Part shown: one piece after another, positions 3,982 through 29,311 of the stretch | Position numbering within the stretch: the stretch's first letter is position 1 | How the letters are laid out: each line of letters starts with the position of its first letter | Origin: a virus | Strand: one strand, 5' to 3' | Length of the DNA stretch: 38,840 bases | IMG/VR virus record: IMGVR_UViG_3300035182_000247 | Coordinates: 1 to 38,840 of that record | Notes under the pieces: model-generated | What the model saw: only the letters and a program-made list of their open reading frames with translations | What the model was told of the DNA's origin: nothing | The model's database searches: none | Made by a program: the position numbers and the translations under genes

Positions 3982-5484
3982 TCACTCCCACCCGAAGACG
4001 GGAGTCCAACGGTGGACGATGGTCCCGGCCGTGCCCGCGGTGCCGATGTGGCGCGTGCAAAGCGCGACGAACTCGCCGGGGTTGACAAACACCGGGGCGT
4101 CGCCGAAGTCACAGAACATCACGCCCTGCGCCACCGCGGTCTGTACCGCTTGAGTCACGACGATCTGCTGCGTGAACGGGAGTGCAATGCGGCGCGGGGC
4201 CTTGGTGGCAGCAGCTTCAGCGGTCCCCAGCGACACAGCGGTGTGGCCGAAGGCGAGGAACCACTCTGCCGTGAACGGGCCGCCCGTAATCGCGGTCTGG
4301 ATGTAGCTCGTGAGGTACATGCCGCGCAGCACGAGACGCCGGCCAGGCAGGTTGGCGGTGCCGGCAGGGACTTGGTACGAGGCGATGATGCCGTCCGTGT
4401 TCACGGCCAGCGTGGCGGTTTCCCAAAACGTGCCGCCCAGGCCGCTGCCGAGCGCGGCGGTCGTGGTCGTCGGCACTGCGGCGGACACGTTGGCCTCGTT
4501 ACCCGTCGTGATCGTGCCCACGCGCGCCAGCGTGCCCATCGTGCCGCCTGACTGGCCCTGATAGCTGCCCAGCATCCGGTTTCCCGCCGTGCTGATCGCG
4601 GTCGTCATGTTCGACCCACCGATCCGCACGCTGTACGCATTCAGCTTGGCCTGGATCACGCCGCCACCTGCGCCGCCAGTGATCCGTTGCTTGAGGGCGA
4701 ACGGCAGCGCCGACGACATGCAGATGCGGCCCTGACCAGCAGGCAAGGGGATGGAGCCGAGCTTGTACGCGCCGAGGATGCCATCATTGACCCAGAAGTG
4801 AGCCTCCGTCGCGCTCGCGTAGACGATGAACTGATACCGCTTGTCGTTCGTGTAGGCCCACGTCCCAGCCCCCGCAGCGGACGGGAAAATTCCGGTGCTG
4901 GTTTCAGCGCCGTTGAAGCTGGCGATGCCCTGCAACCCAGAAGCGTTAAGCCGGAAGAACACGCCATCAGTCGGGGCAACCGCCACCGTGCTTGGCAACA
5001 TGAAGCCGAACTCGACGAAGGTGTTCGTCTGCGGCTGCGCGCTGAATGCCAGTTCGCAGTCATTCGACAGGGTCTGCGTTCCGGTGATAGGAAAGAAGGC
5101 GTAGGTCTGGAACACTGTGCCGGTCGTCGTCGTCGTGATCGACCCGCTGTTCGTCGTCATCAGCCCGGCCGTCCAGGCGTTCACCATCGTCGTCGTCAGG
5201 TACGTGTGCTTGCCGGTGTTCTGCGCGGTGTAATTGAAATTCTCGTCGTCAAGCATGATGTCTTGACTGACGCGGGTGCGGTAGTCCGCATCGACTTCTG
5301 CCGACAGCAGGTAGGGCACGCCGGTTGCGTAGCCCATGTCCGATTCGCCGAACACCCGAACGCCGCCGATGTTGGCAGCGCTCGTCAGCGAGTTGGTTTC
5401 TCCAATGGTCTTGAGGTAGTTCGCCGCCGTGACCTCAGCGCCGTTGCCGGTCGAGTTGCCGACTATTTTCGAGTCGAGTGCCAT
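3982..5484 (-). CDS. Virion structural protein, 500 aa (unassigned)
   Basis: A Thr/Ser/Ala/Gly-rich protein with few Lys and many short beta-like stretches (LSAEVDADYRTRVSQD, VFFRLNASGLQG). It ends in a compact beta-rich segment (GEFVALCTRHIGTAGTAG, then HRWTPVFGWE). This makeup is usual for phage capsid-decoration, tail or fibre proteins. It sits in a run of late genes with a 97-aa protein 21 nt upstream and a TTG-start gene 3 nt downstream. The last third contains MYLTSYIQTAI and VMFCDFGDAPVFVNPGEF, which look like a beta-sandwich. I do not recognise the family; it could be a receptor-binding or decoration protein. Confidence 0.75.
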   Translation of the reverse strand: MALDSKIVGNSTGNGAEVTAANYLKTIGETNSLTSAANIGGVRVFGESDMGYATGVPYLLSAEVDADYRTRVSQDIMLDDENFNYTAQNTGKHTYLTTTMVNAWTAGLMTTNSGSITTTTTGTVFQTYAFFPITGTQTLSNDCELAFSAQPQTNTFVEFGFMLPSTVAVAPTDGVFFRLNASGLQGIASFNGAETSTGIFPSAAGAGTWAYTNDKRYQFIVYASATEAHFWVNDGILGAYKLGSIPLPAGQGRICMSSALPFALKQRITGGAGGGVIQAKLNAYSVRIGGSNMTTAISTAGNRMLGSYQGQSGGTMGTLARVGTITTGNEANVSAAVPTTTTAALGSGLGGTFWETATLAVNTDGIIASYQVPAGTANLPGRRLVLRGMYLTSYIQTAITGGPFTAEWFLAFGHTAVSLGTAEAAATKAPRRIALPFTQQIVVTQAVQTAVAQGVMFCDFGDAPVFVNPGEFVALCTRHIGTAGTAGTIVHRWTPVFGWE

Positions 5485-5505
5485 GATGCTGTTCCTGTTG
5501 TGAGG

Positions 5506-5799
5506 TTAGTCTGACCAGACCCAGCGCAACGCGAACTGGCCTTGGAGTTTGTGGACCGATCTGGCGTGGATCGTGAAGCCCGTCGCCGCGGTCGGCGTGC
5601 CGCAAGTGAAGCTCGCCAGTTGGGGCAGGTAGCGATGATCTGCGGCCGTGTGACCCGTGGCCACGTCGTCGCCCATCACGAAGACCTCGGCCTTCGACGT
5701 GGCGCTGATCGCGGCCTGACCCATCACGGCCACGCTCGCCTCGTTAGCGCCGGGGAATGCGCCGAAGTTGATGGTGGCCGTGCCGGTTGCATTTGCCAT
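5506..5799 (-). CDS. Small virion-type protein, 97 aa
   Basis: Small Ala/Thr/Gly-rich, low-Lys protein beginning MANATGTATINFGAFPGANE, predicted beta-rich, ending ALRWVWSD. It resembles small structural proteins accompanying tail or head genes. The ATG lies 6 nt past the stop of the 56-aa gene. No specific function can be given. Confidence 0.7.
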   Translation of the reverse strand: MANATGTATINFGAFPGANEASVAVMGQAAISATSKAEVFVMGDDVATGHTAADHRYLPQLASFTCGTPTAATGFTIHARSVHKLQGQFALRWVWSD

Positions 5800-7562: not shown

Positions 7563-10500
7563 TTAACTGAACCTGGCGCTGAATGTGGTCTTCGAGCGAC
7601 CAACAATCACAGCGCCAAGTGAATCACTGGAAAACTCGAACGTGACAACAGTCGTATTCAGGCCCAGCGTGGTTTGATTAGCGGACCAACTCTGTGCCGA
7701 CGCCAATGACACCCACGACCCTGTCGTTCCCGCAGAAAGCGATCCAGAATTAACTGTTGCCCTGACCCAATAGGACGACCCGATGCTGGTTGTTGTCGGG
7801 GAGAACCACGGCACTGTCGGATTGGCTGTGGCTGTGATGGTGCCGTTCGTGTTGAGAGTCAGCGTCGCCGTCGCAGTCGATCCGACAACTGTGGCGCTGG
7901 CTGTGCCGATAGATCCCCATCCGGGGTTACTGCATATCTCAAGCGTACCCTGCCGGTTCAGATCGGTGTCTCCGTCAGCCACTCCGATTGCGAAGTTCGG
8001 GTTCCAGATGAACTTAGAGCCAATAGCCTTGATCCAAACAATGTTGTTCGTCGTGTCCTGCCAGAGATACAGGCCGTTGTTGCCGCCTGTCTGCGTCACC
8101 AATGTTGCGTAGCTGGTCGCGCTATGGGTTCCGGTGTAGGTGGCCCCGGCAACCAACCCATAATTATTGACATCGTGATACCCGATGTTGAAGCGGTCAC
8201 TCCCGGACTTCATCATCACTCGGGCCGGAGAGTTGTTGTCCCACGGGATGCCGATGTACATCACATCAGTCGTGCGCGTGAAATTCCATACCCCGAACCC
8301 GACACCTAAATTCATAGGCGTCGTGTCGTTCGGATAGCCCCACAGATAGCGCCCACCATTGCGCAAGCAGGCATGCCGGAATGAGAATCGGCTTGAACCT
8401 GTCCCGTCATGTACAGCCCATGTTCCCTGTACCGTGCCACCTGAATCGAGTTGCTGCGGGGCAATGGCAAACGTCGCGGTTCCGTATGGGCCAACGTCAA
8501 CTGAGTCGATTGCAAATGGACTGAAGCCGTAGAACTCGTCTGTGCTGGTGTAGCCTTGGAAATCGCCAGTCGGTGTCATGGCGGTCAGACTAGCCGCTCC
8601 GTAGGTCATAAACGGACTGTCTTGAATCATGTAGACGCCAGACCCGTTGCCCCAATAGCCGTAGGGGTCCCACTCCGCGCCGACGATGTTCCAGTAGCGC
8701 CTGTCTGCGAAGCTGGGGCTCGCTGCCGAAAAGTTGCGGCCATCAAGGCTTGTTGTTGTTGTGGCTCCGCCACCAGCGCCAAGAGTTCTGAACCCAGGGT
8801 GGCTGTTAACGTACTTGGTCCGCTTATCTCGGTAGGTTCCACGACTGATCGGGTTCAGGTAAAGGTCATACGTGCGCTGCGCACCGCCGCCCTGCCAGAA
8901 GTTATAGTCGTTGTCATTGGTTGGGTTCCCTATGAGCGGCTCGGCTGACCGATTCTGGTAAGGGAAATTCACCCACGTCACGTCCACTGTATTCAGTGTC
9001 CGGTGATAGCTAGACATGCCGTGCAGCGTTGGCTGGACATTCAGCGGCGTACCGTGGGTCGTGTTTGGCGTTGATCCAACCACCAAAGCGCTAGTCAGGA
9101 ATGCGTTATCCCCAGCCGCACCGAAAAAGTGGACATATGGATTGTCAGAGCTACACCACCCCAAGTAATTGACTTGCTTCACTACGTTGGAATAGCCAAC
9201 CGCTCCCGCATGGTGCGTGTTCACGTTCGATATAACACCAACGACCGGCGTACCGACAGAAGTGCCGTCCGATGTTGGCTCCCACTTAAACGCCCCGGCA
9301 GTTATGGAACCAAAATTGTCTAGCGCTCCGCCTCGGGTAAGCAGGTTGTTTGCGGCGTTTGAGAACGTCACGTTGCCGTCGTGAGTGATGGACTGGACAT
9401 ATGCCGGCGTGATGGCAACTGACGTTGACAGACCAAAACAGTTACTAGAAAGAGCGTGCCAATACCCGTTCCCTTGACAATCTCCTGCCACGTTGGACTG
9501 GAACGTATTACCCATGTTAGTGATCCAGAAGCCAGAGCTTCCGCTTGCCATCGAGTCGTCAGTACCGCCGACATAGGCATCGAATGCCTTGATCCTGCGC
9601 AGCGCCAGCGGCTCATCGACCTTCAGGACAGCGTTTCCGGTCCAGGTGTTGTTCTGCTCGCTGCCATCTTCGAGGAAGTAGGCGTTCCCGCTGATCTGGT
9701 AGGCGACGTTGTTCGTCAGCGTGATCCCATCCGTGCCGTGAACCACGATGGCTCGCTGCTTGGAGTTCTTGATCGCGCAGTTCTTGGCACCTTGGCCGGC
9801 GTTGTTGGCCCCGAGAGATGCCCCGCCGCCGCTGAATACGCCTGCGCTGAACGAGGCAGGTGAATAGCTCATCATGTGCCAGTGCAGCGGGTAGCGGCCC
9901 ATGCGCCCCTCTTGCCCGCATCGGTTGATCTCTGCGCCTTCGACGTACATGTAGCCGCCAGCCATGCACATCATGTGAACACCCATTCCACCGAGGGCGG
10001 TGATCGCGCGCGAACTAAGCGTGCCGTTGCTCACGCTCATCGTGTAGGTGCCGGCCCCGCCAGTGCCCGTCCCAAGTGCTGCGATGTACGTCCCCGTCGT
10101 AATGCCGGTGCCGGTGATTTCCTGCCCGACAGCCAGCGTTCCAACCGAAGGTGCCGCAGCGGTCATCGTCGTTCCGCTGAACGAGGCATTGAACGTGGCG
10201 CCGGTCCACAGCGCATCGTTCGCACCATTGATCTTGAGATTGCGCGTCAGGTTCAGGATGTACGCGCGCTGGTCGATCTGCGTCGGCTGGCCCGCCGCGC
10301 CGTTCGTCCACGTCCCGGCCGTGGTGGACACGTAGGGGCTCGCGTCGATGGGGTACATCATCTGCCCCCAGCGGTCGAAGCCGATGCCGCTGGTGAGTGC
10401 CAGGCTCGTGCCGCTGGCGTTCGTGTTCAGCACCTTCAGTTCGGTGCGCTTGCTGGCGTTGTAGTAGCCCGTGGGGCTGATGGCGATTTCGTCACCAGCC

Positions 10501-18942: not shown

Positions 18943-19175
18943 TTCTCCCCCAGCCCGTCAAGCACCGCCCGGCCCTTTGCCGTGACAACCCAACGCCGTT
19001 CGGCCAGGCCGTCACGCTGCATCTCATTGGCCGCGCCTTGTGCTTGGGGCTTTCCGCCGCAAATGTCGATCAGATGTTTGCGCATCTGCATGCAGTTGCC
19101 AGCATCAGCGGCAGCCATCGCGGCAAGGGTTCGCATGCGGTTGCTGCGGGATTTGAATACGCCGTGTGCGCTCAT
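18939..19175 (-). CDS. Small early-operon protein, 78 aa
   Basis: GAGGG lies 7 nt before the ATG, and the ATG overlaps the stop of the 297-codon frame upstream as ATGA. The product is basic, with a helical N-terminus (MSAHGVFKSRSNRMRTLAAM) and a C-terminal segment (GLAERRWVVTAKGRAVLDGL) that looks like a winged-helix end. Function unknown. Confidence 0.65.
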   Translation of the reverse strand: MSAHGVFKSRSNRMRTLAAMAAADAGNCMQMRKHLIDICGGKPQAQGAANEMQRDGLAERRWVVTAKGRAVLDGLGEK

Positions 19176-20065
19176 GCCTGCACCCTCTCAGAACATTGAT
19201 TCAAGGAGACGAAAGGCGGCAGATGCACACTGAGGCACTTGCCCGTTTCCGATGGCTTTAAGTCGGTGTGTCCGATGGGCCACCCCATTAGCCACTCGAC
19301 CCAATTCGGGTTTAGACTCCCACCCATCAAATCGCCAAGTTGCACCGTGTCCCTCGCCATCTGCGAAGGTGCTCCCGTTTCCTTGGCGTTGTGAGCAGTT
19401 GGCGTCGGCCACATCCGAACCGCAGTCGCCAGCCCGTCCCCGCTCGTTGCACTGGCACCCTTCCTGTTGTAGTTCCCGCATACCGTGGGTGTGGGCCACA
19501 GCACTTGCGCTGATAACTTCGGCTCCCCCCGGCTGTTCCACTTCCCAGCCTTCCGATTACATGCATCGTCTGCTACGGGCGTTTGCCAAAAGCCAAAATC
19601 GCTCCCTTTCATGCGACGCCCCAACATCGGCAGCGGATAGCACTGTCCACCGGCAGTCATACCCGAGCGCGGCCAGGTCACCGAGCACAGTTCCGAGTCC
19701 TCTAGTAACGATTGCTGGGCTGTTTTCCACGAAGACGAAGCGGGGTCGAACCTCGCCAACGATCCGCGCCATATGGCCCCACATACCGCTGCGGGTTCCA
19801 GTGATGCCTGCCCCCTTGCCTGCGACGCTGATGTCTTGGCATGGAAACCCGCCAGCCACGATGTCAACAACGCCGCGCCACGGATTTCCGTCAAAGGTCT
19901 GCACGTCATCCCAAATCGGGAAAGGCGGGAGGCTTCCATCGTTTTGTCGTGCCACAAGAACAGCCTGTGCGTAGGGCTCCCACTCGACTGCGGCGACGCA
20001 TCGGTGCCCAAGCATTTGGCCTGCGAGGATGCCGCCACCAGCGCCTGCGAATAGATGTAGCTCAT
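19172..20065 (-). CDS. Long frame overlapping the methyltransferase (WPTPT-type protein)
   Basis: 297 codons without a stop. The ATG directly follows the TGA of the preceding gene and the stop overlaps the next gene as ATGA. Motifs FDPASSSWKT, VTWPRSGM, GFWQTPVAD and WPTPTV occur in a phage protein type I recognise, often seen near cytosine methyltransferases. Here those motifs are the second-frame reading of methyltransferase motifs: FDPASSSWKT lies over RFVFVENS, GFWQTP over FWLLANA, WPTPTV over AHTHG. It is either a true overprinted gene or a long non-coding frame kept open by composition. The unbroken frame and exact junctions favour translation; the other frame carries a stop. Confidence 0.5.
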   Translation of the reverse strand: MSYIYSQALVAASSQAKCLGTDASPQSSGSPTHRLFLWHDKTMEASRLSRFGMTCRPLTEIRGAALLTSWLAGFHAKTSASQARGQASLEPAAVCGAIWRGSLARFDPASSSWKTAQQSLLEDSELCSVTWPRSGMTAGGQCYPLPMLGRRMKGSDFGFWQTPVADDACNRKAGKWNSRGEPKLSAQVLWPTPTVCGNYNRKGASATSGDGLATAVRMWPTPTAHNAKETGAPSQMARDTVQLGDLMGGSLNPNWVEWLMGWPIGHTDLKPSETGKCLSVHLPPFVSLNQCSERVQA

Positions 20066-22192: not shown

Positions 22193-22221
22193 TTGACGCT
22201 TTGTTTAGATTGCCCTACATT
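22193..22221 (+). promoter_or_regulatory. Rightward early promoter
   Basis: TTGACG, 17-nt spacer, TACATT. Transcription would start near 22228 and drive the pentapeptide-repeat gene (ATG 22261, preceded by AGGAG) and the plus-strand early operon. An operator candidate overlaps its spacer. Confidence 0.7.
22204..22218. promoter_or_regulatory. Operator candidate 2
   Basis: TTTAGATTGCCCTAC shares TTTAG-N5-CCTA with operator candidate 1 and lies in the rightward promoter. In addition GTTTAGATT at 22203..22211 is the exact complement of AATCTAAAC at 22143..22151, so a further half-site lies between the two promoters. Confidence 0.5.
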
Positions 22222-22260
22222 ACGCCTAACCGCTGCACACCGCAGCCAACAGGAGCAGAG

Positions 22261-23022
22261 ATGGCAACGCAAAAGATCGTCAGTCGTTGGAACAGCGACA
22301 AGGTGCTGTTTGAGTGCGAACTGCCCGAAGGCATCGATAACAGCTTGAAAATGCGCCACGCGGTTGAGAAGGCAACGGAATCGCGCGCAAACCTGTCGGG
22401 CGCCAACCTGTCGGGCGCAAAATTGTCGGGCGCCAACTTGTCGGACGCCAACTTGTCGGATGCCAACTTGTCGGACGCAAACCTGTCGCGAGCCTACCTG
22501 TCGGACGCCAACCTGTCGGGCGCCAACCTGTCGGACGCCTACCTGTCGGACGCCAACTTGTCGGACGCCAACTTGTCGGACGCCAACCTGTCGGACGCCA
22601 ACCTGTCGGACGCCAACTTGTCGGACGCCAACCTATCGGGCGCCAACTTGTCGGACGCCAACTTGTCGGGCGCCAACCTGTCGGACGCCAACTTGTCGGA
22701 CGCCAACCTATCGGGCGCCTACCTGTCGGGAGCCTACCTGTCGCTCGCCAAGTGGCGCGACGGCATCGTCATCAACAAGACGCCGATTCAAGTGTTTGGC
22801 CTGCATTGGATCGTGACCATCCTTGATGCACACATGCAGATCGGTTGCGAACTGCATCCACTGTGCAACTGGCTCGCGTTTGATGATGCCCGAATCGCAT
22901 CGATGGACGGCCGCGAGGCGCTGCGGTTCTGGCGCACGAACAAAGACGCGCTGCTGTCGCTGGCCCGCGCCAATGGCCGCACGTTCGAGGTTGCCACTTC
23001 CGCTGAACCCATCGCCACCTAA
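22261..23022 (+). CDS. Pentapeptide-repeat protein, 253 aa
   Basis: Residues 42-161 are 24 tandem pentapeptides, nearly all (D/G)ANLS with a few AYLS and one AKLS, enough for six turns of a right-handed quadrilateral beta-helix. A short N-terminal region ([20 protein letters not shown]) precedes, and a C-terminal about 90-aa domain follows ([19 protein letters not shown], then [16 protein letters not shown]), a tail seen in other phage pentapeptide proteins. Some family members mimic DNA and bind gyrase; the role here is unknown. ATG at 22261 is chosen for its AGGAG. It takes the first place on the divergent rightward transcript, where a CI repressor is expected. Confidence 0.85.
22384..22743 (+). 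repeat. 24 tandem 15-bp repeats
   Basis: Near-identical copies of a 15-bp unit close to GACGCCAACCTGTCG encode the pentapeptides. Differences are mostly GAC/GGC and CTG/TTG. Low divergence in synonymous positions suggests recent expansion by slippage or recombination. Confidence 0.9.
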
Positions 23023-24083: not shown

Positions 24084-24728
24084 ATGAAGCTCATTGCATC
24101 CGCCTTCATCAAGGCAAAGCGCGAATTCGGCCCGGCGCTGAAAGACAAGACGAACCCGGCGTTTCGGTCGAAATACGCCGACCTCGGCGCATGCATCGAT
24201 GCGGTAGACGATGCGCTGCTGAATCACGGCATCGCCTTCGTTCAGCACACGTTCGAGGATGCCACCGGGATCACGGTCGAAACCGTGTTCCTGCACGACT
24301 CAGGCGAGACGATGGCGTGCGGGAAACTGCACGTCCCGGCGTCGAAACAAGACCCGCAAGGGTACGGGTCAGCCCTGACCTATGCGCGCCGCTACAGCTT
24401 GATGACGGCGTGCGGAATCGCGGCCGAAGATGATGACGGCAACGCAGCCAGCAAGGCAAAGCCAAAGATCGAGCAACCCAAGACTGGGGCAATGGCCGAC
24501 GTGATCGCGCAGATGCCGGAACTAGCCCCTGATGACAAGCTGTATTTCGATGAACTGGCATTCAATGTGGCCGACCTATTTGCCTCGAAAGGTCAGGCCG
24601 TGGCGTTTGACCGGGTGAAGGCGGAAGGGCTCGATTCTGACCAAACGCTATACCTTTGGAGCAGGCTAAAAAGCAACGTGCGCAGCGGCTTGAAGGTGGA
24701 GAAGGGCTTGCGGAATGGGTCGGCATGA
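24084..24728 (+). CDS. erf: ERF-family single-strand annealing protein
   Basis: 214 aa, usual length. N-terminal IKAKREFGPALKDKTNPAFRSK-type start (KTNPAFRSKYADLGACIDAV), GYGSALTYARRYSLMTACGI in the core, and a variable C-terminus are the ERF signature (P22 Erf). It binds single-stranded DNA and anneals complementary strands for phage recombination or circularisation. It starts 6 nt after the preceding gene and overlaps the next by ATGA. Such recombinases also promote gene mosaicism, which may matter beside the cassette array. Confidence 0.88.
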   Translation: MKLIASAFIKAKREFGPALKDKTNPAFRSKYADLGACIDAVDDALLNHGIAFVQHTFEDATGITVETVFLHDSGETMACGKLHVPASKQDPQGYGSALTYARRYSLMTACGIAAEDDDGNAASKAKPKIEQPKTGAMADVIAQMPELAPDDKLYFDELAFNVADLFASKGQAVAFDRVKAEGLDSDQTLYLWSRLKSNVRSGLKVEKGLRNGSA

Positions 24729-25087: not shown

Positions 25088-25200
25088 CAAGAAATGCTTG
25101 TGAGTTCGGCGCGCATCTTCGCTTCTGCGCTTTCTGTGGAGAGAACTTGCACGCGAAGCATGCCGCCCAACCGTTTGAGTTAGAAGGCTTGGTGGAGTAA
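25072..25200 (+). CDS. Small CxxC protein, 42 aa, C-terminus formed by a cassette junction
   Basis: GGAG 8 nt before the ATG; starts inside the end of the previous gene. MSDELTRNACEFGAHLRFCA, then FCGENLHAKHAA, holds a short CxFC zinc-like motif. The last codons (QPFELEGLVE) are read across the short recombination-like site at 25166..25190, so the original C-terminus may have differed before the cassette inserted. Confidence 0.6.
   Translation: MSDELTRNACEFGAHLRFCAFCGENLHAKHAAQPFELEGLVE
25166..25190 (+). repeat. Short degenerate attC-like site at array start
   Basis: CCCAAC, 7 nt, then GTTAGAAGGCTT. It has R''- and R'-like cores but no L arms. GTTAGAAGGCTT is the exact complement of AAGCCTTCTAAC at 26067..26078, the end of the PP-loop enzyme's cassette. 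Could be an insertion target or a shortened attC. Confidence 0.55.
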
Positions 25201-25211
25201 CAAGGAAATGT

Positions 25212-26063
25212 ATGCACGACGCATTTAAGACTGCTGGGCCGACCTGCATTAGCTTCAGTGGCGGCAGGACGAGCGCTTACCTTCTGTGGCGCGTGCTACA
25301 GGCGCACGGCGGCAAGCTGCCGGACGATGCACATGTGTTGTTCTGCAACACCGGCAAGGAAGAAGAAGCCACGCTGCGCTTTGTGCGCGACTGCGGCCAG
25401 CGCTGGGGCGTTGACATCCTGTGGCTGGAGTACACCGGCAGCGGCGCATGGATACAGGCCGATTTCCATTCGGCTGACCGCAACGGTGAGCCCTTTGAAG
25501 CCGTGATTGCCCAGCGCGGCGGGAACCTGCCAAACAGGATGGCGCGGTACTGCTCCAGCGAACTGAAGACACGCACCATGCACCGCTACCTGCGCTGGAG
25601 CGGGTGGACAGAATGGGACACGTTCATTGGGATTCGCGCCGACGAGCCGCGCCGTGTGGCGAAGTTCAGGGCGAACCCACACCCGGAGACAAAGGCCGAA
25701 ACAGTGGACATGCCGCTGGTGTGGGCCGGCGTTGGCGCTGCCGAAGTGGGCGAGTTTTGGAAGGCGCAGCCCTTCGACTTAGAGTTGCCAAACAACGGCG
25801 GCAAGACGCTGCACGGGAACTGCGACCTGTGCTTTTTGAAGCCAGCAGCCCAGGTGCAGAGCCTGATTGCCGAGAAGCCAGCCCGCGCCGTGTGGTTGGC
25901 GAAGCAGGAAGCGAAGGCGCTTTCAGCCGGGATCGGGTGGAGCGGTTCACGCTTCCGTGATGACCGGCCAGGCTACGCCGCGATGAAGCTGGCGGCAGAG
26001 CAGCAGCGCCTGCTACAGGGCTTCGAGCATGAGGAAGCGCTGGCGTGCTTCTGCGGCGAGTAG
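25212..26063 (+). CDS. PP-loop ATPase, PAPS-reductase-like
   Basis: 283 aa. ISFSGGRTSAYLL (13-25) is the SGGxxS PP-loop that adenylates or binds a nucleotide. LFCNTGKEEEATLRFVRDCG and YCSSELKTR are typical of the phage phosphoadenosine-phosphosulfate reductase/sulfotransferase-like group. Cys pairs appear late (GNCDLCFLK, ACFCGE), possibly holding a metal or cluster. The substrate is unknown: sulfur metabolism, tRNA or DNA thio-modification (DndC-like) are options. The gene fills its own cassette (25179..26078). Confidence 0.78.
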   Translation: MHDAFKTAGPTCISFSGGRTSAYLLWRVLQAHGGKLPDDAHVLFCNTGKEEEATLRFVRDCGQRWGVDILWLEYTGSGAWIQADFHSADRNGEPFEAVIAQRGGNLPNRMARYCSSELKTRTMHRYLRWSGWTEWDTFIGIRADEPRRVAKFRANPHPETKAETVDMPLVWAGVGAAEVGEFWKAQPFDLELPNNGGKTLHGNCDLCFLKPAAQVQSLIAEKPARAVWLAKQEAKALSAGIGWSGSRFRDDRPGYAAMKLAAEQQRLLQGFEHEEALACFCGE

Positions 26064-26066
26064 TGG

Positions 26067-26094
26067 AAGCCTTCTAACGACCTAGTTAGGCCCC
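26067..26094 (+). repeat. Short degenerate attC-like site
   Basis: AAGCCTTCTAAC (cassette end), 6 nt, then GTTAGGCCCC (next cassette start). No L arms. GTTAGGCCCC is the exact complement of GGGGCCTAAC at 26676..26685. Same R-core-only design as the site at 25166. Confidence 0.6.
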
Positions 26095-26117
26095 ACGTAA
26101 CCGGAGCGAGACACGGC

Positions 26118-26315
26118 ATGAATGACAAAGTTGTGTTTTTGGCCTACCGCACGGACAAGGCCAACACGGACGGTAAGGAAGTTCTGGCGTGCGCCCAGTG
26201 CAAGAACAAGGCATGGACTGTGGTGTACGACGACCAGGGCGACCAGTACCCGCGCCTTGTGTGTACTGCGTGCGCTACGGATGGCGGCACGTTTGGGTGG
26301 GTAAGCAAGGAGTGA
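26118..26315 (+). CDS. Small zinc-ribbon protein, 65 aa
   Basis: CAQC and CTAC, 27 residues apart, form a probable zinc ribbon (VLACAQCKNKAWTVVYDD, then LVCTACATDGG). First of three genes in a 600-bp cassette. GGAGC lies about 13 nt before the ATG. Function unknown. Confidence 0.7.
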   Translation: MNDKVVFLAYRTDKANTDGKEVLACAQCKNKAWTVVYDDQGDQYPRLVCTACATDGGTFGWVSKE

Positions 26316-26317
26316 AC

Positions 26318-26557
26318 ATGGCGGATAGAAACATTTTGGTGACTGCGCATGACTACCGAGGTGAAGAAGCGAAGGAGCTTGCACGGTGGGCAGCGCGTGG
26401 CCGGTGGCTGGCCGAGAAACTGACCGAACGCTCAACGCCTGACGGTAGGACGGTTTTGGAGCTGGTGGACGAACCCATCTGGGCGCGCGCAGACGGCACG
26501 TTTGCCGACTACTGCGCTGCGGTGGATGCGGCAATGGAGGCAGACGATGGGTGCTGA
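26318..26557 (+). CDS. Small cassette protein, 79 aa
   Basis: AAGGAG 6 nt before the ATG at 26318; the stop of the previous gene lies in that spacer. Starts MADRNILVTAHDYRGEEAKE, helical, acidic end (YCAAVDAAMEADDGC). Second gene of its cassette. Function unknown. Confidence 0.65.
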   Translation: MADRNILVTAHDYRGEEAKELARWAARGRWLAEKLTERSTPDGRTVLELVDEPIWARADGTFADYCAAVDAAMEADDGC

Positions 26558-26684
26558 AATTTACCCGCACCACTGCGCACCCGAGGATGTGGCGGCGCTG
26601 GTGCGGCGGTTGGAAGCGCTGGCCGACCCAGCGCAGCAGCCGACGCCAAGCTACGAGAACACCGACTGGCGGCACGGGGCCTAA
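26547..26684 (+). CDS. Small cassette protein, 45 aa
   Basis: Starts inside the end of the preceding gene (ATG 26547, GGAGG-like GGAGGCAGACG upstream). MGAEIYPHHCAPEDVAALVR, then a helix, ending TDWRHGA. Its stop TAA is the TAA of the cassette-end GCCTAAC, as in many cassettes. Function unknown. Confidence 0.6.
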   Translation: MGAEIYPHHCAPEDVAALVRRLEALADPAQQPTPSYENTDWRHGA

Positions 26685-26737
26685 CGCTTGACTTAAGCGG
26701 CGAGCGCAGCGAGTCCGACTTGAAGGAATTGTTAGGC
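26679..26737 (+). repeat. attC site A, 59 bp
   Basis: GCCTAAC (26679..26685) and GTTAGGC (26731..26737) are perfectly complementary. Inside them GACTTAAGCGG pairs with CCGACTTGAAGG, leaving unpaired bases in the right arm, around a 14-nt centre (CGAGCGCAGCGAGT). Length and layout match textbook 59-base elements, and the flank GCTTGACTTAAGC...GAATTGTTAGGC closely resembles attC sites of aadA-type cassettes as I remember them. Confidence 0.88.
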
Positions 26738-26759
26738 CTGTGGGCCGGAGAGGACATGG

Positions 26760-27218
26760 ATGATAGAACTACTGACAAGGCTGCGGAGCGGGCATGTTTC
26801 ACGCCAACCGCACCGAGACGCAATGGGCAACATGACGTGGATTGAGATTCCACACCCGCCATCTGATCTGTGCTCTGCTGCAGCGAATGAGATCGAGCGT
26901 ATGCGCGCCATTGTGGACGAGCAGCAGCGGACGATTGCCGCCTTTATGGATGGGCTCGATGACACTACGACGCCAGTGATTCGCCGACTTGCCGCTGCCG
27001 CCGACGAGATTGATCGGCTCCGCGCTGACCGAGATTGCGAACATCGGTTGCGCAAGGACAGCGACGATCTGGCCACTGAACTGCGGCTGGCGCTTGAGGC
27101 AGTCATGTCTCTCCCATCCGATACCGAGTTGGCTTGGGCGGTGCTTGAGCGAATTCACGGTGTTGGAAGCGGTGGGTTTGTGAGGCCTAACGTAGAGCTA
27201 AGCGGGAGATGCCCATGA
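26760..27218 (+). CDS. Cassette protein with coiled coil, 152 aa
   Basis: AGAGG 7 nt before the ATG at 26760, all within the cassette. Middle residues form a coiled coil (AANEIERMRAIVDEQQRTIA, AAADEIDRLRADRDCEHRL). Phage-like proteins with such IERMRAIVDEQ segments are common in early operons. The C-terminus RPNVELSGRCP is read from the following attC site (27185). Function unknown. Confidence 0.7.
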   Translation: MIELLTRLRSGHVSRQPHRDAMGNMTWIEIPHPPSDLCSAAANEIERMRAIVDEQQRTIAAFMDGLDDTTTPVIRRLAAAADEIDRLRADRDCEHRLRKDSDDLATELRLALEAVMSLPSDTELAWAVLERIHGVGSGGFVRPNVELSGRCP

Positions 27219-27278
27219 CCAAGCATGAAGACACCACCCAAGCTGCCGGCGGCTCTCCGCTTGAGCGAGTGGTTAGGG
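27185..27278 (+). repeat. attC site B with start codon in its loop
   Basis: GCCTAAC (27185..27191) and GTTAGGG (27272..27278) flank arms GAGCTAAGCGG (27195..27205) and CCGCTTGAGC (27257..27266), which pair with one unpaired G. The about 50-nt loop holds GGGAG and the ATG at 27215 of the next cassette's gene, whose frame runs through the right arm as PLERVVR. Confidence 0.8.
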
Positions 27279-27568
27279 CGCTGCCTGAGCCCCTGCCATG
27301 CCCGTTTTGTGGGCGACAGCCGGAGCTAGACAACCCGGACACTCTCTATCCGAACGGCACTGGGTGGAAACCGCGAAGCGGCCTCCGTTCTTACGTCGGT
27401 TTCCGCGAAGTTCCGAAGGAGCGGTGGTGTTACGGGATGCACTGCTGCCAGTGCTGCGGTGGGTGCGGCGCTGAGATTCATGGAGATAGCGCGGCCGAAG
27501 CCGTGCAGAAGTGGAACCGGCGCCCTAACGTAGAGTTAAGGGGCGACGCTTCGCGGCGTCCCTCTTGA
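27215..27568 (+). CDS. Lar-family-like restriction alleviation protein
   Basis: The Lar signature is clear: LPCPFCGRQPEL near residue 27, then a second Cys cluster (MHCCQCCGGCGAEIHGDS) and EAVQKWNRRP. Lar relatives relieve type I restriction by affecting methylation or the restriction enzyme. The first about 22 residues, ending SPLERVVRAL, come from attC site B and precede the normal Lar start; the C-terminus RPNVELRGDASRRPS comes from site C. GGGAG precedes the ATG at 27215. Anti-restriction activity is inferred from family. Confidence 0.75.
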   Translation: MTKHEDTTQAAGGSPLERVVRALPEPLPCPFCGRQPELDNPDTLYPNGTGWKPRSGLRSYVGFREVPKERWCYGMHCCQCCGGCGAEIHGDSAAEAVQKWNRRPNVELRGDASRRPS

Positions 27569-27582
27569 ACGGCGGGTTGTGC
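27523..27582 (+). repeat. attC site C, 60 bp
   Basis: CCCTAAC (27523..27529) and GTTGTGC (27576..27582) flank arms GAGTTAAGGGG and TCCCTCTTGAAC, which pair with two unpaired bases, around GACGC...GCGTC, a small hairpin. The right end matches its own cassette's end at 27784..27793 (10 bp) and not its own left end, as expected in an array. Confidence 0.82.
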
Positions 27583-27607
27583 GCCGATTTTGAAAAAGGA
27601 GAGATAC

Positions 27608-27850
27608 ATGGACGTAAGCAGGCAAGAGGAAATCATCTCCATACTATGGATAATTGCTGCATTGATCGCCTTCGGTAACGGATTTGATGGATGGGGATGG
27701 GCGTTTGCAATTAAGGGCGGTCTTGATACCGCAACGGCTATTTGGTTTGCAATTAAGGAAATCATCGCCGAGATCAAAGCGAAGGCGCACAACGTGGAGT
27801 TGATCGGACCGCAACAGCCCGCACAGGAGCACGCAAATGGAACAGAGTAG
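27608..27850 (+). CDS. Small membrane protein in a cassette, 80 aa
   Basis: AAGGAG 6 nt before the ATG. Two hydrophobic segments (IISILWIIAALIAFGNGF and GWGWAFAIKGGLDTATAIWF). The gene is AT-richer than its neighbours, suggesting a separate origin. The tail AHNVELIGPQQ is read from the next attC site. Overlaps the next ORF by 14 nt. Function unknown. Confidence 0.68.
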   Translation: MDVSRQEEIISILWIIAALIAFGNGFDGWGWAFAIKGGLDTATAIWFAIKEIIAEIKAKAHNVELIGPQQPAQEHANGTE

Positions 27851-27888
27851 CCAGGCCGTTGTGGGTCCGCTCGAACGCCGTGTTAGAG
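27787..27888 (+). repeat. attC site with start codon in its loop (C2)
   Basis: GCACAAC (27787..27793) and GTTAGAG (27882..27888). Left arm GAGTTGATCGGACC pairs with GGTCCGCTCGAAC with one mismatch and one unpaired G. The loop holds CACAGGAG and the ATG at 27837; the frame passes through the right arm as PLERRVR. Confidence 0.78.
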
Positions 27889-28226
27889 CACTGGACCCGG
27901 AGCGCGCGAAGTTTGAGACGTGGTGCTGCAAGCGCTGGGATGGCGACAGCATGCCTTTGAAGATGAACGAGTCCGGCGAGTACGACAACGGCTATGCGCA
28001 GTTTGCTTGGCGAGCGTGGCAAGAGGCACGGCCCAAGCGGCCAGCAGTTGGGGCGGCCATGAATGTGGCTTCGATGCTGGCGCAGCGCAAGCCGCTCACG
28101 GCCTTCGCCGAGTTGGAAGAAGCACGGCAAGTCGGGCGCCGCCAACTTGCGAAGGCATACAACAGGGCCGACGAAGACACGCGACTGCTGGCGGTGAAGT
28201 TGATTGATGCACTACGAGCGCTCTAA
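27837..28226 (+). CDS. Phage-type cassette protein, 129 aa
   Basis: Leader ending GPLERRVRAL comes from the preceding attC; the body begins near FETWCCKRWDGDSMPLK and YAQFAWRAWQEAR, a pattern I associate with short phage proteins (FxxWxxx...YxxxxxxxxWxAWQ). AGGAG lies 9 nt before the ATG. The stop TAA is in the cassette end CTCTAAC. Function unknown. Confidence 0.7.
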   Translation: MEQSSQAVVGPLERRVRALDPERAKFETWCCKRWDGDSMPLKMNESGEYDNGYAQFAWRAWQEARPKRPAVGAAMNVASMLAQRKPLTAFAELEEARQVGRRQLAKAYNRADEDTRLLAVKLIDALRAL

Positions 28227-28324
28227 CGTAGAGCTAAGCGGGCACCAGCGGCCCGCACAGGAGTAGGACATGAGCGAAGAAATTACCCAGGCCGTTGGTG
28301 CTCCGCTTGAGCGCCAAGTTAGGC
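28222..28324 (+). repeat. attC site D with start codon in its loop
   Basis: CTCTAAC (28222..28228) and GTTAGGC (28318..28324). Left arm GAGCTAAGCGGGCACC (28232..28247) pairs with GGTGCTCCGCTTGAGC (28297..28312) over 14 pairs with two unpaired bases. The about 50-nt loop has CACAGGAG and the ATG at 28270; the frame continues as PLERQVR. Confidence 0.85.
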
Positions 28325-28596
28325 CGCGTGCGATGTGGAGCAGCGGCCTGCAATGCGGCTGGCAATCTTGGACTGTGGTGGACGATGGCATTCTGCGCCT
28401 GGACATGCCGGCCGACAACTGCTGCGACATGGACGGCGCCATCAAGGCGGCCCAGGCGCTTTGCCCGAGTGTGTGGCGCATTGACACCTACTCGGGCGGC
28501 GAGCCGGACACGATGTATTTGGCGCGTGGCAGCAAGTGGGAGGCGGTCGATGAACGCGCCGCACACCTGCTGTACGCCACGTATCCAGCGGCCTAA
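28270..28596 (+). CDS. Cassette protein, 108 aa
   Basis: The leader APLERQVR is encoded by the preceding attC. The body starts RAMWSSGLQCGWQSWTVVDD and has Cys/Trp-rich strands and TYSGGEPDTMYLARGSKW. AGGAG precedes the ATG. The stop TAA is in the cassette end GCCTAAC. No family recognised. Confidence 0.68.
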   Translation: MSEEITQAVGAPLERQVRPRAMWSSGLQCGWQSWTVVDDGILRLDMPADNCCDMDGAIKAAQALCPSVWRIDTYSGGEPDTMYLARGSKWEAVDERAAHLLYATYPAA

Positions 28597-28651
28597 CGTA
28601 TGAGTGCAGGGGCGCCAGCTTGCTGGCGTCCCTTGCCACGATGGGTTAGGC
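28591..28651 (+). repeat. attC site E, 61 bp
   Basis: GCCTAAC (28591..28597) and GTTAGGC (28645..28651), perfect complements, with a strong central hairpin CGCCAGC-TT-GCTGGCG and GGGG/CCC arms. The L arms are poorer than in the other sites. Confidence 0.7.
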
Positions 28652-28697
28652 CTGCATCCGGGGCATTCCCCCAAGTTGGTGAACAAAGGAGAATTTG

Positions 28698-28973
28698 ATG
28701 TTTGGACTGACGAAACGTGAACAGCGATGGAAAGCAGAGCAGCAGGTCGCCGAGGTGATGGCTGGCTTGGCTGCTGTATCCATCCGGGGCGAGGCAGACG
28801 CCCGCGTGGCAGAGGCGCGGACCGATGCTGCGGAACTTGCGCGGCTGCGCGCCGAAAACGCGACGCTGCGCGCATTGATGACGCGCTACCGCAGCGAGAC
28901 GCCGCTCGGCCACCAGCCACACATGATCGCGCACGAAGTTGATAAGGCACTTGAGACGCCTAACGTAATGTAG
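28698..28973 (+). CDS. Coiled-coil cassette protein, 91 aa
   Basis: AAAGGAG 7 nt before the ATG at 28698. Helical throughout (LTKREQRWKAEQQVAEVMAG, ELARLRAENATLRALMTRYR), a leucine-zipper-like coiled coil, ending TPNVM inside the last site. Could dimerise; function unknown. Confidence 0.68.
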   Translation: MFGLTKREQRWKAEQQVAEVMAGLAAVSIRGEADARVAEARTDAAELARLRAENATLRALMTRYRSETPLGHQPHMIAHEVDKALETPNVM

Positions 28974-28975
28974 GC
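28958..28975 (+). repeat. Array-end site, right half not recognised
   Basis: GCCTAACGTAATGTAGGC: a left R core with a short GCCTA/TAGGC inverted repeat, followed by a GCAGCA-CTTC-TGCTGC hairpin (28974..28989). No GTTAGG-type right core is found downstream, so this may be the worn or truncated end of the array. Confidence 0.5.
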
Positions 28976-29036
28976 AGCACTTCTGCTGCGTAACACCGTC
29001 CCAGCAAGATTACGCAGCACGAACCAAGGGAGAACC

Positions 29037-29102
29037 ATGACTGACGGAAAAACCGCTGCCAATCGCGCTGCTATTGGGGCGGGCACAAAGGGGCCGACAT
29101 GA
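29037..29102 (+). CDS. Possible 21-aa leader ORF
   Basis: GGGAG 4 nt before the ATG; 21 codons (MTDGKTAANRAAIGAGTKGP...) whose stop overlaps the next start as ATGA. It may couple ribosomes into the Cys-rich gene. Short, so uncertain. Confidence 0.4.
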   Translation: MTDGKTAANRAAIGAGTKGPT

Positions 29103-29311
29103 AGGTTTGCAAATGCTGCGGATTGCCAGAGTCGAACCATCACGAATTCGAGCCGCAAATGCCTGATGGATGTATCTGCGATCCGGGAGAGTGGGGCGAT
29201 AACGTGAGACAGCCCTGCCATGAATACGTGGGCGACGGTGTGTCGTACTGCGCCACTTGTCAGCATGACAAAGCATGTCATCAAGCCCCAAGCAAGAATC
29301 CGCAGGCATGA
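29099..29311 (+). CDS. Cys-rich small protein, 70 aa
   Basis: About ten Cys and several His (MKVCKCCGLPESNHHEFEP, GCICDPGEWGD, YCATCQHDKACH) suggest a zinc-binding fold. Last gene of the plus-strand early operon. No known function. Confidence 0.7.
   Translation: MKVCKCCGLPESNHHEFEPQMPDGCICDPGEWGDNVRQPCHEYVGDGVSYCATCQHDKACHQAPSKNPQA

Follow-up and report, generated by a model that had tools for sequence, protein, structure and literature searches.

Introduction

Arrays of integron-type gene cassettes are already known from phage genomes, as Qi et al. 2023 described clusters of attC sites lacking integron-integrases (CALINs) in the phages TJE1, P12002L and PH101, the attC sites of such phage CALINs being recombined by IntI1 (PMC9892861). 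Here, we describe a cassette array in the early region of the linear IMG/VR contig IMGVR_UViG_3300035182_000247 (38,840 bases, analyzed at full length and called the window in the following), in which each attC precedes its own gene. The initial annotation of this window, made from the letters alone, had proposed cassettes of this type but knew of no well-described phage example, a view of the literature that the phage CALINs overturn. These share with the window attC arrays in phage genomes without intI, and methyltransferase cassettes, whereas neither a phage-specific IntI lineage nor attC-supplied start codons nor natural cassette variants were reported for them (PMC9892861). The attC sites of TJE1 are canonical, lying 3′ of the open reading frame (ORF).

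Complete integrons, with intI and cassettes in the phage genome as in the relatives described below, occur in the temperate phages Vibrio Va_90-11-286_p16, Shewanella M16-3 and E. coli P1, and those of the Vibrio phage and P1 have been described as bacterial integrons that the phage captured (PMC9892861). The IntIs of these three phages are only 41–54% identical to the phage-clade IntI that we used as query. Class 1 and sedentary chromosomal integrons agree with the phage system in the IntI family, in attC structure, in an attI located by the start of intI and in the polarity of attC relative to intI, but their ORFs are directed away from intI, with transcription from the promoter Pc, whereas in the phage system they point towards intI and attC lies 5′. 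Treponema-type integrons also transcribe intI and the cassette genes in one direction; there, however, intI is flipped and attC remains 3′ of the gene, while here the polarity of intI, attI and attC is canonical and the ORFs are flipped. The attC bottom-strand preference is considered essential, as it orients cassettes for Pc (PMC8946536). A search of the open-access literature, with subscription papers and preprints outside its scope, returned no report of inverted phage cassettes, so that the bare idea of phage cassette arrays is not new, while the inverted class appears to be.

Results and Discussion

Segments and attC sites

Between positions 25179 and 28964 (25.2–29.0 kb), the window consists of eight consecutive GTT...AAC segments, whose own ends are perfectly complementary over 12, 10, 9, 10, 10, 8, 10 and 7 bp. 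The sum of 76 is the top score among all 40,320 assignments of segment heads to tails and is reached only twice, by the identity and by one tie that arises because segments 3 and 8 start alike. The longest chain of self-paired segments on the + strand has eight members compared with at most five in 100 dinucleotide shuffles of the window, and the eight self-complementary segments of the initial annotation are thus borne out. The L arms with an unpaired base that it described are found at six junctions between segments, which display the full R″-L″...L′-R′ layout with an extrahelical G; the two leftmost junctions have no L arms and the rightmost comprises R″, L″ and L′ only.

The covariance model R1, trained on 14 phage sites including two from the window (27185–27278 and 28221–28324), matched six attC sites in the window, all on the + strand at 26.6–28.7 kb and four of them outside the training set, which is the outcome that the initial annotation had suggested looking for. 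R1 also matched the class 1 integron attCs in the plasmid loci L051–L054, and it found no attC at E 0.001 in 11 attC-free sister phage genomes bearing ERF. Covariation between L″ and L′ amounted to 0.250 compared with 0.081 after shuffling, for 14 sites that had themselves been selected for pairing. The attC at 26670–26745 alone produced blastn matches in 2,198 plasmid records, including the attCs of the aadB and fosI cassettes. Rfam at the gathering threshold gave no match across the whole window, and blastn of the array region against INPHARED gave none either. Judged by sequence and predicted pairing, the six hairpin sites are attCs, and the array has the makeup of a CALIN: tandem attCs of one polarity, each with one or few ORFs, and no adjoining intI.

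Two further candidates were assessed. A 13-mer at the right end of the array shared with attI1 (TGTTACGCAGCAG) was first read as attI, but would fit the L′ arm of a decayed attC just as well; the right end (28958–29003) is either attC-like with R′ lost or attI-like, and a clear attI-like box occurs only in the intI-bearing relatives. The ′mini-attC′ (AAC-N5-8-GTT), considered as a site type of its own, mostly turned out to be the R″-L″ half of an ordinary attC.

Inverted cassette polarity

Complementary segment ends alone leave the orientation of the cassettes unfixed. We therefore oriented each attC by its extrahelical base and called the ORFs between consecutive sites by codon models; these replaced a crude count of longest-ORF orientations, which was ambiguous in GC-rich DNA (98:57, with 89 ambiguous). 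All loci were drawn with specific probes, and the counts given here and below describe probe-found loci. On the gene strand of the window attCs, the extrahelical G is located in L′, and all window sites match R1 on the + strand together with + strand ORFs, rather than lying 3′ of an ORF as in a canonical cassette. The attC at 26679 is accordingly arranged as the reverse complement of the plasmid layout, as L051–L054 match on the + strand and carry their resistance genes on the − strand.

Across viral arrays, 177 ORFs were inverted relative to attC and seven canonical, six of the latter coming from a single IntI-bearing contig with canonical cassettes (L166). Bacterial genome contigs found with the same probe gave 0 inverted and 28 canonical ORFs, and plasmids 0 and 2. 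One and the same probe had yielded both the loci L001–L010, inverted wherever they could be classified, and the bacterial set, canonical throughout. We conclude that in these phages attC precedes its own gene and that the array is inverted relative to bacterial integrons, with which the exchange junctions and the intI layout described below agree independently. The initial annotation was thus right about the cassettes, while the polarity implied by its segment reading has to be reversed, with the crossover point falling at + strand AA^C (opposite-strand G^TT) and not at + strand G^TT.

The chosen ORF has its start codon within the attC in 56 of 165 cassettes, as do three window ORFs (27209, 27837 and 28270) that read PLERxVR through L′-R′, and its stop is precisely the TAA of the following R″ box in 61 of 165. 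The PLERxVR leaders were first taken for a cross-cassette fusion, in which the attC of one cassette starts the gene of the next, which was rejected because shared cassettes extend over the upstream attC but leave out the downstream attC. Nor do we claim a special coding design of the attC-encoded leaders: they occur in two frames (30 and 22 cases), and hardly any use the third, in which GTTAGG gives a TAG stop.

Exchange of exact cassettes between near-identical relatives

Natural variants were found among relatives of the window phage. The contigs L282 and L283 share 99.98% identity over the 4,586 bp that lead up to GAGTCTCAA on the left side of the array, and 96.4% over the 4,267 bp that begin with the attI-like box on the right. 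The stretch enclosed by these flanks holds one cassette X in L282 and the series Y-X-Z in L283. The junctions are GAGTCTCAA^CGCAAAAG and CACAA^CTTAAATTC in L282, and CAA^CGCATGAG, GCCAA^CGCAAAAG, CACAA^CGGCTGAA and GCCGAA^CTTAAATTC in L283, so that all of them fall at AA^C, the cut of IntI, and have AAC plus a few bases in common but no more. Cassettes X and Z open with an attC and run on into a + strand ORF, while Y has no clear attC.

A second group of contigs from five metagenomes (L295/L296, L297/L298 and L299) is identical over 1.3–6.6 kb right of the attI-like box and differs in sequence to the left of it; between L295 and L298, 99.84% identity resumes farther left over 3,165 bp, ending at GCCTGCTAA^CG. 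L129 and L181 have a 448-bp block in common (98.7% identical) that comprises the upstream attC and the ORF, with differing downstream attCs, and the cassettes shared by L129/L181 and by L106/L187 are bounded by R″ on both sides. Exact cassettes have thus been gained and lost among the relatives in the manner of an integrase, and in the polarity given above. The comparison of related phages proposed by the initial annotation succeeded for L282/L283 and L295/L298, with junctions at AA^C, but not for the window′s own phage, as the second contig that represents it (L006, 99.94% identical to the window over 14.5 kb) has the same array.

Related phages with their own IntI and attI-like box

IntI scored above the cut-off in three of 50 array-bearing viral records. 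Searching with the IntI of L273 gave 38 viral loci, about 20 of which have R1 sites directly 5′ of intI. These contigs share one layout, in which cassettes, a conserved attI-like box and intI follow each other in one direction, the cassette ORFs being co-directional with intI in nearly all callable cases. Their IntI is a member of the integron-integrase family (TIGR02249, 390 bits, above the curated cut-off), with IntI4 (2a3v, E 3e-69) as the nearest solved structure. Nearly all of the 19 phage intIs inspected are preceded by this box, whose sequence is RYYYAAC-TTAAATTC-nn-CGACA with some variation; in the canonical sense it reads TGTCGTTGAATTTAAGTTAGGC and it abuts the last cassette. We interpret it as a putative attI. 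The supposition that the phage must borrow an integrase or inherit the array as a block therefore applies to the window′s phage, which has none, and not to the roughly 20 relatives that encode their own IntI beside this box.

Many of the intI-bearing viral contigs are phages, as seen from terminase, head, tail and integrase genes, although not each viral contig is proven to be one. A GpA-type terminase is present in 13 of them and a phrog_15 terminase in nine of 17 tested, and L282 encodes SSB, a Mu-Gam-like protein, a phage integrase, tail proteins and a terminase. In a maximum-likelihood tree of 53 IntIs, a split with support of 100/99 has 32 bacterial sequences on one side and, on the other, 19 viral ones together with two from bacterial contigs. 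The latter two, L355 and L357, are the only bacterial loci in which all callable ORFs point towards intI, i.e. are inverted; L362, with mixed ORF directions, has its IntI placed with the bacteria. Membership in the IntI clade thus matches cassette polarity. L355 is located in a prophage with genes for a phage integrase, tail, tape measure, major head, terminase and primase, on a contig of a metagenome-assembled genome (MAG) of the betaproteobacterial Rhodocyclaceae. As identity between the phage IntI and bacterial IntIs of this order reaches ~65–67%, the phage lineage probably left such bacterial integrons.

Three further observations concern IntI in other settings. One Rhodocyclaceae MAG (G107, with L323 and L355) contains both a chromosomal-type IntI and the prophage-borne phage-clade IntI, and might be a setting in which cassettes move between the two. 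A second, separate viral IntI clade (L300 and also L301–L307; 99/97) was found, in which L300 has its attC array 3′ of a co-directional intI, with canonical cassettes wherever callable. The GenBank phage Virus Rctr41k (KX853513.1, L344) from a methane-oxidizing enrichment encodes an IntI-like protein annotated as xerD (4680–5678) and has long attC-like repeats near 8415 and 8686; Qi et al. 2023 do not mention it by name in their main text.

Cassette cargo

Among 108 cassette products scanned, eight of them from the window, 14 belong to DNA methyltransferase families (10 N6_N4, 2 Dam, 1 D12, 1 MT-A70), compared with at least two methyltransferases among 100 non-array genes of the same contigs. 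Two products are similar to phosphoadenosine phosphosulfate (PAPS) reductase, single matches were obtained for Lar, a Mom-like modifier, dGTP hydrolase, MazG and RNA ligase, and most products match no family. A PADLOC scan mostly recovered the methyltransferases again. With methyltransferases, Lar and the Mom-like modifier among the predicted products, loading of anti-defence genes, as the initial annotation suggested, is a plausible role of the cargo. At least four distinct genes similar to DNA methyltransferases, each in a cassette of its own, lie beside intI in one phage array (L274, 11918–19057).

Genomic context and features of the array

The minus strand of the window encodes TerL, portal, tail fibre, DNA-ejection and NinG proteins, and ERF belongs to a + strand early operon that continues into the cassette array. 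The features of this region are compiled in Table 1. Farther 5′ of ERF, the early region includes a pentapeptide-repeat-like protein with repeated A(N/Y)LS units (22201–23022). A DNA methyltransferase outside the array is encoded on the minus strand (19172–20065), with DNA-level similarity in the related contigs L036, L135 and L116.

Table 1. Features of the window in and next to the cassette array; VTS, variable terminal structure.
Feature	Position	Strand	Remarks
ERF single-strand annealing protein	24084..24728	+	PHROG 2324, E 3e-40; early operon directly 5′ of array
Left junction J0, degenerate	25165..25185	+	R″ GCCCAAC, 7 nt, R′ GTTAGAA; no L arms; no covariance-model match
Cassette 1 ORF, PAPS-reductase-like	25212..26063	+	Pfam PF01507, 4e-5; PHROG 424, 4e-44
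Junction J1, degenerate	26072..26091	+	TTCTAAC-6 nt-GTTAGGC; no L arms; 8.2 bits with R1; cassette 1 ends pair over 12 bp
Cassette 2	26118..26684	+	Three small overlapping ORFs: 26118–26315 (Zn-ribbon-like), 26321–26557 and 26502–26684, the third ending at TAA of following R″
attC, compact	26679..26737	+	R1 21.5 bits, outside training; blastn to aadB/fosI attCs, their gene on opposite strand
Cassette 3 ORF, 152 aa, no function assigned	26760..27218	+	
attC with long VTS holding start codon	27185..27278	+	R1 54.3 bits (training site); exactly this stretch 92–93% identical in L118, L158 and L094, flanks unrelated
Cassette 4 ORF, Lar-like restriction alleviation protein	27209..27568	+	PF14354, 4.5e-6; PHROG 599, 8e-10; start within attC, PLERVVR encoded across L′-R′
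attC	27523..27582	+	R1 51.7 bits, outside training
Cassette 5 ORF, small hydrophobic protein	27590..27850	+	
attC with long VTS holding start codon	27787..27889	+	R1 25.1 bits, outside training
Cassette 6 ORF	27837..28226	+	Start within attC (PLERRVR); stop is TAA of following R″
attC with long VTS holding start codon	28221..28324	+	R1 53.8 bits (training site); single-strand DNA fold z −4.7; 94.5% identical in L008
Cassette 7 ORF	28270..28596	+	Start within attC (PLERQVR); stop is TAA of following R″; relative in array locus L175
attC, compact	28591..28651	+	R1 32.4 bits, outside training; DNA fold z −4.7
Cassette 8 ORF, coiled-coil-like, no function assigned	28695..28973	+	
Right end	28958..29003	+	R″ GCCTAAC plus GCAGCA/TGCTGC hairpin, R′ lost; 10.1 bits; decayed attC or attI-like end
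Possible ninth cassette ORF	29099..29311	+	Relative in array region of L040

Assessment of the array and of alternative explanations

The presence of integron-type cassettes in a phage early operon is supported by the attC structure, the plasmid attC homology, the attC-free sister phages and the exact cassette differences between near-identical relatives, and we regard the window region as very probably an integrase-less array of a phage-specific integron kind with inverted cassettes. Several observations weigh against this assignment. As the initial annotation had correctly stated for the integrase, the window contains neither intI nor a remnant of it, so that it is no complete integron of the type present in about 20 related contigs, and most array loci likewise have no intI in the stretch examined. 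No variant of the window′s own phage with a differing array was found, and mobility is known from the arrays of relatives. Both left junctions, having no L arms, and the right end, having no good R′, are degenerate; the polarity of single sites depends on the extrahelical base and a codon-usage ORF caller; and the breakpoints counted across the full set of shared blocks are divided between R″ (12) and R′ (10), with only the recent ones favoring R″ and the older, more diverged blocks giving a mixed picture.

The missing intI, as well as the identical array in L006, would also fit ordinary bacterial cassettes with attC 3′ of the gene that were taken up en bloc by illegitimate recombination and are carried as passive cargo. 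Phage CALINs of canonical polarity such as TJE1 exist, and capture by illegitimate recombination has been put forward for known phage CALINs (Qi et al., PMC9892861). Block capture nevertheless appears improbable to us, as nearly all of these phage arrays, but none of the bacterial ones, have inverted polarity, and as related phages have a distinct IntI clade and swap cassettes at the putative attI.

Swapping of cassettes by homologous recombination of the phage ERF/RecT type between conserved attC repeats would need no integron integrase, and some attCs are indeed 92–95% identical over 95–110 bp across unrelated phages, which is sufficient for ERF-type recombination. Segment ends that match only each other over 7–12 bp are, however, not a product of homologous exchange, the L282/L283 junctions have too little in common, and relatives possess IntI and the attI-like box, all of which makes this explanation hard to credit. 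We give almost no credence to the view that the hairpins resemble attC in appearance only and serve the phage operon as regulatory or terminator repeats. They do lie between all genes and three of them hold start codons, but this view is opposed by compensatory L″/L′ pairs (in sites chosen for pairing), the extrahelical G, the homology to plasmid attCs, the self-paired segment ends and the IntI and attI-like box adjoining in relatives.

Proposed mechanism

For the phage-specific, inverted integron, we propose that a cassette on the + strand is the unit [C of R″ box, rest of attC, ORF, RYYYAA]. The IntI cut G^TTRRRY, read on the gene strand as RYYYAA^C, would then fall just past the end of the gene and often right after its TAA stop. 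Cassettes would join at other attCs or at the attI-like box, which in relatives is directly 5′ of the phage intI. Together with intI, where present, they may be transcribed early as a single co-directional unit 3′ of the recombination genes, which are ERF in the window and Sak4, SSB and Gam in L282, so that a phage promoter instead of the integron Pc would drive their expression; inverted ORFs would be silent under a Pc-type promoter, which fits this arrangement. The attC may additionally act as a translational joint, with R″ supplying the stop of the preceding gene and, in about one third of the cassettes, the hairpin supplying the start codon of the next. Arrays without intI such as that of the window could be served by IntI of a co-infecting or resident phage or of the host, and the small cargo would probably be used as a varying set of counter-restriction and takeover genes.

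Conclusion

On the whole, we consider it likely that temperate phages of Betaproteobacteria and beyond keep an integron lineage of their own with its IntI clade and attI, in which cassettes are inverted for the phage early promoter, attC serves as a stop/start joint, and a shared pool of accessory and counter-restriction genes is available also to phages without intI. A lineage with nearly all cassettes flipped suggests that the orientation rule of integrons serves expression rather than recombination, and that phages have rebuilt integrons to suit operons of their own. Phages would thereby have an integrase-driven route for swapping accessory genes between unrelated genomes, and natural phage pairs that differ by whole cassettes are ready material for testing it. 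The arrays may represent a reservoir of counter-defence genes opposite the defence cassettes of bacterial integrons.

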